A stretch of 64,000 bases of DNA from Prevotella sp. (GTDB lineage Bacteria > Bacteroidota > Bacteroidia > Bacteroidales > Bacteroidaceae). Both the position numbers and the translations under genes were made by a program. The notes beneath the pieces are model-generated. The model had not been told where the DNA came from. It ran no database searches and was given only the letters and a program-made list of their open reading frames with translations. Each line of letters opens with the position of its first letter. Position 1 is the stretch's first letter. The stretch spans positions 1 to 64,000 of the forward strand of contig JALFSW010000087.1 in NCBI GenBank assembly GCA_022779305.1. The letters run 5' to 3'. This document shows positions 9,111 through 62,771 of this stretch, piece by piece.

Positions 9111-9148
9111 TAAACAATTGAAAATCAAGCGATTTAGAAGTAGCTTGC

Positions 9149-9229
9149 AATTGAGCTTCACTTGCATCCCAACTGAGCCTCAGTTACCGGCAAAATGAGC
9201 CTTACTTGATTTATAACTGAGCTTCACTT
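9149..9229. repeat. 22-bp-period array of a 15-bp dyad (family C), 4 units
   Basis: Units start at 9149, 9171, 9193, 9215: AATTGAGCTTCACTT, AACTGAGCCTCAGTT, AAATGAGCCTTACTT, AACTGAGCTTCACTT. Confidence 0.8.
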
Positions 9230-9316
9230 GCAATCTTCGTCTTGCACGTGAACGTTTTTTCATTGCTCATTTGGCTTAAAAAAGCACAATAATTTGGCAA
9301 AGCAAACATTTTAATG

Positions 9317-13353: not shown

Positions 13354-13375
13354 ATGTCTTGTTTTATTAATCTTA

Positions 13376-13462
13376 AACCCAAATTGGTCAATAGCCCATT
13401 AGGGTTTTCTTTTTATTTTCTTTTATCCATTTCCCTTTGGTCTCTAATGACTGAATTGGGTT
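13376..13462. repeat. Internally deleted copy of MITE-like family B
   Basis: Begins AACCCAAATTGGTCAATAG and ends TTGGTCTCTAATGACTGAATTGGGTT; only ~87 bp; abuts the next copy. Confidence 0.7.
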
Positions 13463-13463
13463 G

Positions 13464-13658
13464 AACCCAAATCGGTCATTAGACCGTAGAGTGTTCTCTT
13501 TATTTTCTTTATTTACTCCCAATTGCTTGCATCCACTTGCCGGCATCTTGTTCAGCATTTTCTCTTGAAGTAGCCCGCTACATCTGCGATAAAATTCTGA
13601 ACAACCTGCACTGACAATTAGATACAACCCCTTTGGTCTCTAATGACCGAATTGGGTT
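13464..13658. repeat. MITE-like family B element, full-length copy (195 bp)
   Basis: Terminal inverted repeats AACCCAAATCGGTCATTAGACC / GGTCTCTAATGACCGAATTGGGTT; core CTTGAAGTAGCCCGCTACATCTGCGATAAAATTCTGAAC. Confidence 0.8.
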
Positions 13659-22172: not shown

Positions 22173-22354
22173 CGTTCAATTTCATTTAGTCGTTTTTTTC
22201 GCCATGGCAATGTAAAAACTTCGTGCCTCGTTTTCCGCTGCTCATTTGGCTTAACAAAAACGTTCAACTTCGTTTAGTCGTTTTTTCGCCATGGCAATGT
22301 AAAAACTTCGTGCCTCGTTTTTCCGCTGCTCATTTGGCTTGACAAAAACGTTCA
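22173..22354 (-). repeat. Tandem pair of 88-bp leader elements (family A)
   Basis: CGTTCA at 22173, 22261 and 22349 gives an exact 88-bp period; two near-identical units in the purB 5' leader. Confidence 0.88.
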
Positions 22355-22513: not shown

Positions 22514-22588
22514 TGGGCGTTGACGGATTCGAACCGCCGACCCTCTGCTTGTAAGGCAGATGCTCTAAACCAGCTGAGCTAAACGCCC
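22514..22588 (-). tRNA. tRNA-Val (anticodon TAC)
   Basis: GGGCGTTTAGCTCAGCTGGTTTAGAGCATCTGCCTTACAAGCAGAGGGTCGGCGGTTCGAATCCGTCAACGCCCA; cloverleaf consistent; CCA not encoded. Confidence 0.95.
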
Positions 22589-22675: not shown

Positions 22676-22750
22676 TGGGCGTTGACGGATTCGAACCGCC
22701 GACCCTCTGCTTGTAAGGCAGATGCTCTAAACCAGCTGAGCTAAACGCCC
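22676..22750 (-). tRNA. tRNA-Val (anticodon TAC), second identical copy
   Basis: Identical 75-nt sequence to 22514..22588. Confidence 0.95.
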
Positions 22751-23029: not shown

Positions 23030-23088
23030 AACTAAGGCTCACTTACAACGCAACTGAGGCTCACTTGTCTTGCAAATGAGCCTCAGTT
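23030..23088. repeat. 22-bp-period dyad array (family C), 3 units
   Basis: Units at 23030, 23052, 23074: AACTAAGGCTCACTT, AACTGAGGCTCACTT, AAATGAGCCTCAGTT; possible decayed unit at 23096. Confidence 0.8.
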
Positions 23089-23133
23089 GAAAAGCAAGTA
23101 TACTTTCTCTTGCAAATCTATAAAATGAAAACA

Positions 23134-32273: not shown

Positions 32274-32425
32274 CTTTTTCAGTCTGCTGCAAACTTACAT
32301 ATTTTTTTCCGATTACGTTCCTTTTCGCCTTGATAAATGTCATCTATTCGCTTGCTTTCGACATTTTTACAGTTCAATGATGGTCTCTGTCTGCAAAAGT
32401 TTTTACCTTTGCATCACAAATATTA

Positions 32426-32622
32426 AACCCAATTCGGTCATTAGAGACCAAACGGATTACGTCTGATGGGCTATGCAGATTCTTCATCGTTTTCTCGCAG
32501 ATGTAGCGGGCTTATTTCAAGCGAAAACGATGAATAAGCTGCCGAAAAGCAGATGTAAGCAGTTGGGAAGTTAATAAATAAAATAAAAAAGACCCCTAAC
32601 GGTCTAATGACCGATTTGGGTT
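32426..32622. repeat. MITE-like family B element, full-length copy (197 bp)
   Basis: AACCCAATTCGGTCATTAGAGACC...GGTCTAATGACCGATTTGGGTT; internal CATCGTTTTC...GAAAACGATG hairpin. Confidence 0.8.
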
Positions 32623-32640
32623 TAACTCTGATCAAGAAAA

Positions 32641-35867: not shown

Positions 35868-35926
35868 AACTAAGCCTCAGTTGCGCTGCAACTGAGGCTT
35901 TATTGCATCCCAAATGAGGCTCACTT
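35868..35926. repeat. 22-bp-period dyad array (family C), 3 units
   Basis: Units at 35868, 35890, 35912: AACTAAGCCTCAGTT, AACTGAGGCTTTATT, AAATGAGGCTCACTT. Confidence 0.78.
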
Positions 35927-62574: not shown

Positions 62575-62771
62575 AACCCAATTCGGTCATTAGAGACCAA
62601 ACTGATTGCAGCTGATGGTCTGTGCAGGTTGTTTAGCGTTTTATCGCAGATGTAGCGGGCTACTTCAAGAGAAAACGATAAAGAAGATGCCGACAAGCAG
62701 ATGCAAACGGTTGGGAAGTGAATAAATAAGACAAAAAGAAAACCCAAGCGGTCTAATGACCGATTTGGGTT
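62575..62771. repeat. MITE-like family B element, full-length copy (197 bp)
   Basis: AACCCAATTCGGTCATTAGAGACC...GGTCTAATGACCGATTTGGGTT; core GTTTAGCGTTTTATCGCAGATGTAGCGGGCTACTTCAAGAGAAAACGATAAAG. Confidence 0.8.

Follow-up and report, generated by a model that had tools for sequence, protein, structure and literature searches.

The stretch of Prevotella sp. DNA analyzed here (64,000 nucleotides, referred to as the window) contains a 193-bp MITE on the plus strand at 32428–32620, flanked by the divergent DUF3822 and lrgA genes and situated 20 bp upstream of lrgA. The element runs from CCC to GGG and is bounded by 17-bp terminal inverted repeats (CCCAAWTCGGTCATTAG), the left one CCCAATTCGGTCATTAG at 32428–32444 (plus strand) and the right one CCCAAATCGGTCATTAG at 32604–32620 (minus strand). 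The target-site duplication of this copy is imperfect, with TTAAA at 32423–32427 on the left and TTTAA at 32621–32625 on the right. The interior holds a covarying hairpin (plus strand, 32478–32540; covariance model R1, 56.2 bits, E = 2.8e-12), which is topped by a conserved apical module, CGCAGATGTAGCGGGCTTATTTCAAGC (plus strand, 32496–32522). The module consists of a 7-bp stem, a 4-nt loop, and a purine-rich internal loop, and it carries one extra base in this copy.

Three other full copies are present in the window. The copy at 62577–62769 (plus strand, hairpin 62627–62688) has the exact duplication TTAAA and lies between a trigger-factor-like gene and a histidine-kinase gene; the copy at 39755–39946 (minus strand, hairpin 39835–39896) has the exact duplication TTTAA and is situated upstream of a mutL-like gene. 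The last, at 13466–13656 (minus strand, hairpin 13545–13606), abuts a short internally deleted form of about 85 bp that does not contain the hairpin (13373–13465, minus strand). When the covariance model was run on the window, exactly these four copies were matched, with E values from 6e-8 to 4e-17. All four are full-length members of a family of 191–195 bp, a length that is the same in nearly all species examined. The target-site duplication of the family is 5 bp long and TTWAA-like (TTTAA, TTAAA, ATTAT, TTAAT, ATAAA), and it is exact for most copies, across several species. The family thus has the makeup of a MITE: a short multicopy element with terminal inverted repeats, a target-site duplication, and ends that match an autonomous element. 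At less than 200 bp, and with an interior unrelated to that insertion sequence (IS), it has no transposase gene.

The window also contains features of other kinds. A 15-nt motif resembling AACTGAGGCTCACTT recurs with a 22-bp period in intergenic arrays at 9127–9229, 23030–23110, 35868–35926, and 47199–47279, which are unrelated to the MITE. A repeat of about 87 bp (ATTTAGTCGTTTTTTCGCCATGGCAATGTAAAAACT...GCTCATTTGGCTTAACAAAAACG) is found at 22173–22354, 40241–40334, and also 9256–9291, in tandem at one site and single elsewhere. Two identical tRNA genes lie 162 bp apart on the minus strand (22514–22588 and 22676–22750), and an engA RNA (RF02972) at 53811–53913 on the minus strand exceeds its gathering score.

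The source genome (2.23 Mb in 90 contigs) contains at least 41 full copies of the MITE, a lower bound from a count in which 40 candidates were scored. Its end sequence is matched 313 times, against none with a reversed control. Dozens of copies per genome occur in Prevotella-type gut and oral bacteria, where the interiors have diverged between species to about 69% identity or less at nearly constant length. Of 200 genomes sampled from the genus, 81 have the ends and 28 are matched by the hairpin model. Named carriers among the matches listed are Prevotella koreensis, P. corporis, P. falsenii, Leyella lascolaii, Hoylesella marshii, and Alloprevotella sp. oral taxon 473. A covariance-model scan of other Bacteroidota, most of the sampled genomes being from outside the family, matched 0 of 295, which indicates only that the element appears restricted to relatives. 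Searches of phages, plasmids, and IMG/VR for the element gave no match.

Two relatives (G078 and G212) carry an intact IS of 1465 and 1471 bp with the same 17-bp ends as the MITE, flanked by duplications TTTAA and TTTAT. It codes for a 443-residue transposase of the IS1380 family (NF033539, E = 1.6e-72; PF13701, E = 4.3e-42). In the source genome, two contigs break inside such an IS; its ends are intact and the protein identity is 83–85%. Although the ends and the 5-bp duplication are common to the IS and the MITE, the MITE interior is not derived from the IS: BLAST similarity is confined to the ends, and the autonomous IS1380 copies are without the apical module. An origin of the 193-bp family as a deletion derivative was therefore rejected. 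Because the ends alone are common to both, the most likely arrangement, judging from these comparisons, is that the IS1380-family IS mobilizes the MITE in trans. Dispersed near-identical copies and their duplications are indirect signs of this mobility. The sequence data are clear as to the defined ends, the duplications, the high copy number, the genus-wide spread, and the identity of the ends to those of IS1380. A PF13701 search for further IS1380 partners found other members, all without these ends. Genomes G077 and G085 hold many near-identical MITE copies and no detected related transposase, which may have been lost or collapsed in assembly, or the mobilizer may be a different one.

Further forms with the same ends were observed. 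Forms of 54–66 bp and 180 bp are IS-derived, as are, unlike the 193-bp family, the short forms L074, L094, and L105. A sister family of 162 and 240 bp (L111, L141, L146, L163, L167) has the apex CAATGGGGTTCCATTG, which may be either homologous or a replacement. REP/RAYT elements are palindromes of 20–40 bp that bear a GTAG or similar tag and are associated with a RAYT transposase; membership of this class was rejected for an element of 193 bp with terminal repeats, target duplications, and a DDE transposase partner.

The sequence-only reading had described a hairpin with a conserved core and flanking arms that change together between the four window copies. The arms quoted for all four are present in the sequence. 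Only two copies, however, those at 13.5 and 62.6 kb, match the core exactly; the one at 39.8 kb departs from it at three positions, and the one at 32.4 kb has an additional base and reads GGGCTTATTTCAAG. Numbered from the innermost outer pair, compensatory columns among the window copies are pair 7 (G-C/A-T), pair 9 (T-A/G-C), and pair 11 (C-G/T-A), and mismatched cells are A.G in the 13.5, C.A in the 39.8, and G.A in the 62.6 kb copy. Covariation within the source genome is weak, with about five double compensatory steps among 47 distinct copies, 23 of which have G.A at pair 9. The case from the window alone is thin and would have been insufficient.

The co-variation is far stronger across species. 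In a gap-free alignment of the central 62 nt of 35 divergent sequences from Prevotella species, compensatory change is seen in 16 of the 17 outer-helix pairs, and 87.9% of the cells are paired. Both sides have changed in 153 cells in register, against 44–55 when the partner is slid. The covariation score is 0.501, compared with 0.120–0.157 in slid registers, and none of 500 shuffles reaches 0.501. Reconstruction on a tree gives 29–32 compensatory events in register versus 0–6 in slid registers, and RNAalifold, unaided, recovers the identical 24 pairs. An R-scape-like G-test over all column pairs with a parsimony-simulated null, which is conservative, yielded no significant pair; apart from this one test, covariation supports the fold as it would for a structured RNA. 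With other species included, covariation is thus far above background when judged against slid registers but not in the R-scape-like test, and the slid-register contrast supports the earlier suggestion of selection on a folded RNA or DNA. On this alignment evidence, the internal hairpin is real, and its arms are kept by compensatory substitution across species. The whole element folds as an end-to-end stem enclosing a long imperfect hairpin, with energy z scores of about −7 to −16.

The inner part of the hairpin behaves differently from the arms. Four of the seven pairs in the inner stem are invariant, and the stem-loop GUAG-CGGG-CUAC is almost so, suggesting that the tip may be recognized by sequence as well as by shape. 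Within the element, evolution is slowest in the 26-nt tip, with 2.7-fold fewer terminal-branch substitutions in the apex than in the remaining interior (p = 1e-6); in the source genome, the ends and the tip are both the slowest-evolving parts. Against Rfam, at gathering and loose thresholds, the element matched only sub-threshold miRNA-type hairpin models. Several other identities were considered and dropped: a coding peptide (one frame of the apex gives xVAGYx, but neither the arms nor the frames are conserved), an attC site (target duplications are present instead), and a transcription terminator as the main function (the T-run is not kept between species).

Three observations bear on whether the fold is selected as RNA or as DNA. 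Among relatives, changes from Watson-Crick pairs to G.T outnumber those to A.C by 52 to 18 on one strand (p = 6e-5), versus ratios of about 1:1 to 1.6:1 in slid registers. With the source-genome copies added, the counts are 52–55 versus 30–33, and inside the source genome alone the asymmetry is absent (14:11). In nearly all of the hairpin-bearing elements tested, the fold of the module strand, which carries TAGCGRGCTA, is more stable than that of the complementary strand. Of the elements located between co-directional genes, 47 are placed in sense and 18 in antisense (p = 4e-4; 44:17 in another count), a bias that remains without the source genome (35:14). Because the G.T excess, the more stable fold, and the sense placement concern the same strand, the selected form is probably RNA of one strand rather than DNA. 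That this is a read-through RNA is well supported, if indirectly. The 32.4 kb copy counts against the read-through view, as it lies between divergent genes and not in a 3' untranslated region.

An exact scan of genome contigs for the apex had Lachnospiraceae among the matches listed, including the isolate Lachnospiraceae bacterium A4. Here the apex CGCAGGCGTAGCGGGCTACGTCAAGA tops a single-hairpin MITE of 155 bp with ends GGAACTGTT... and 3-bp TTA/TAA duplications. The A4 IS copies with such ends code for ISAzo13-family transposases (E = 1e-158 and 1e-170). In A4 the apex occurs 23 times, exactly or nearly so, whereas among other genomes of its order 1 of 294 matches, with one mismatch. Both groups also have a second type of apex (GCATAGCGGGCTATGT.ACTG), found in L124 and L148 from Prevotella relatives and in L288 from A4. 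A4 contains further MITE families (L285, L286, L288, L289) with variant ISAzo13-like ends and TAGCGGGCTA-type apices. The IS1380 and ISAzo13 families found here have neither ends nor transposase in common. Together with the 26-nt identity, the different ends and transposase families point to lateral acquisition of the apex by the two MITE families rather than inheritance from a common MITE ancestor. Its presence inside an unrelated element of another phylum makes the tip a probable portable RNA part, presumably with a function.

The fold could instead act as DNA, as a cruciform or single-stranded structure during replication or transposition whose tip binds a transposase or a host DNA protein. 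The module is found only in mobile elements, and the MITEs that carry it belong to two DDE transposase families; as DNA the tip is nearly a palindrome, and its slow evolution in the source genome is matched by that of the ends. A cruciform, however, is symmetric between strands, whereas the excess of G.T over A.C is confined to one strand, which is also the one with the more stable fold. A transposase-binding tip also sits poorly with two IS families that differ in both ends and transposase, and with autonomous IS1380 copies that do without the module and match the MITE by BLAST at their ends only. We therefore regard the DNA reading as unlikely.

Rather less likely still is that the hairpin has no function and that template switching between the arms at replication (quasi-palindrome correction) produces mutational covariation. 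Six of 173 elements (L024, L128, L142, L153, L177, L184) are without the outer mismatched loop, and several of these have the long, perfectly complementary arms that correction would give. In L128, L142, L177, and L184, where perfect long arms accompany loss of the outer G-A mismatch loop, this is likely a signature of such correction. But the same 32 compensatory steps are counted with or without the six elements, and on 21 of 25 branches the steps are isolated changes of a single pair. Correction should also erase internal loops, whereas the CGMAG/CRAG and outer G-A loops remain in most copies, and it offers no reason to expect an invariant tip or a sense bias. The placement and the sense bias could reflect nothing more than avoidance of harm, antisense insertions into operons being purged since the minus strand of the right end, AGACCGTTAGGGGTCT followed by a T run (32605–32590), resembles an intrinsic terminator. 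The bias persists outside the source genome, where the T-run is often missing, and harm avoidance leaves the covariation unexplained; we consider this explanation quite improbable.

The reading that we favor, and to which we give slightly better than an even chance, is a MITE mobilized in trans that, when transcribed by read-through, would present a portable hairpin to a candidate host factor. The IS1380-family IS would supply transposase in trans to the 193-bp non-autonomous element, and read-through from the upstream gene would yield RNA of the module strand. The apex, with its 7-bp stem, CGGG loop, and flanking CGMAG/CRAG internal loop, would be the recognition site, a role that we infer for it, and would be bound by a widespread host RNA-binding factor or ribonuclease. 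By this means, inserted copies may have the transcript around them processed, protected, or insulated while costing the host little. Such a benefit would explain why element lineages retain the module and why it recurs in Lachnospiraceae MITEs. A broader and more tentative proposal, which falls somewhat short of an even chance, is that non-autonomous transposons of two unrelated IS families, IS1380 in Prevotella-type bacteria and ISAzo13 in Lachnospiraceae, have acquired the 26-nt apex as a portable RNA module, and that it gives any MITE carrying it an advantage through a conserved host factor making insertions cheap or useful.

MITEs with stable RNA folds are known, and the folds have mostly been ascribed to terminal repeats and considered incidental. 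In contrast, the hairpin described here is independent of the ends and preserved through compensatory change, its tip is more constrained than the transposon ends, and that tip is common to two unrelated MITE families in two phyla. The question of whether small mobile elements carry RNA components that aid their spread or tolerance can thus be tested, each genome of these common gut and oral bacteria providing dozens of natural replicates. In the literature searched, no Prevotella, IS1380, or ISAzo13 MITE of this kind was described.

The bcr1-type repeats of the Bacillus cereus group are mobile, about 155 bp long, and have a conserved RNA-like fold with compensatory changes; they differ from the Prevotella MITE in sequence and hosts. 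QMITE2 of Coxiella burnetii, a MITE found mainly in 3' untranslated regions with a stable predicted transcript fold (PMC10969869), has different ends and a different size. The ERIC/RU-1 elements of enterobacteria are 127-bp intergenic sequences with a long imperfect hairpin that are co-transcribed with their neighbors and affect mRNA stability depending on orientation (PMC2229807, PMC10969869). No sequence, ends, or target duplication in common with the Prevotella MITE was seen, and a tip common to a second, unrelated MITE family is not described for them in these two papers. The Correia/NEMIS elements of Neisseria are small MITEs with long terminal repeats that form an RNA hairpin in mRNAs and are processed by RNase III (PMC2229807, PMC10969869). 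In these elements the hairpin is formed by the terminal repeats, whereas the Prevotella MITE, with different ends and in a different phylum, keeps a hairpin in its interior that is distinct from those ends and conserved in sequence at its tip. By analogy, the best reading is that the Prevotella MITE would act on mRNA much as Correia or ERIC elements do, through a hairpin that is separate from its ends.
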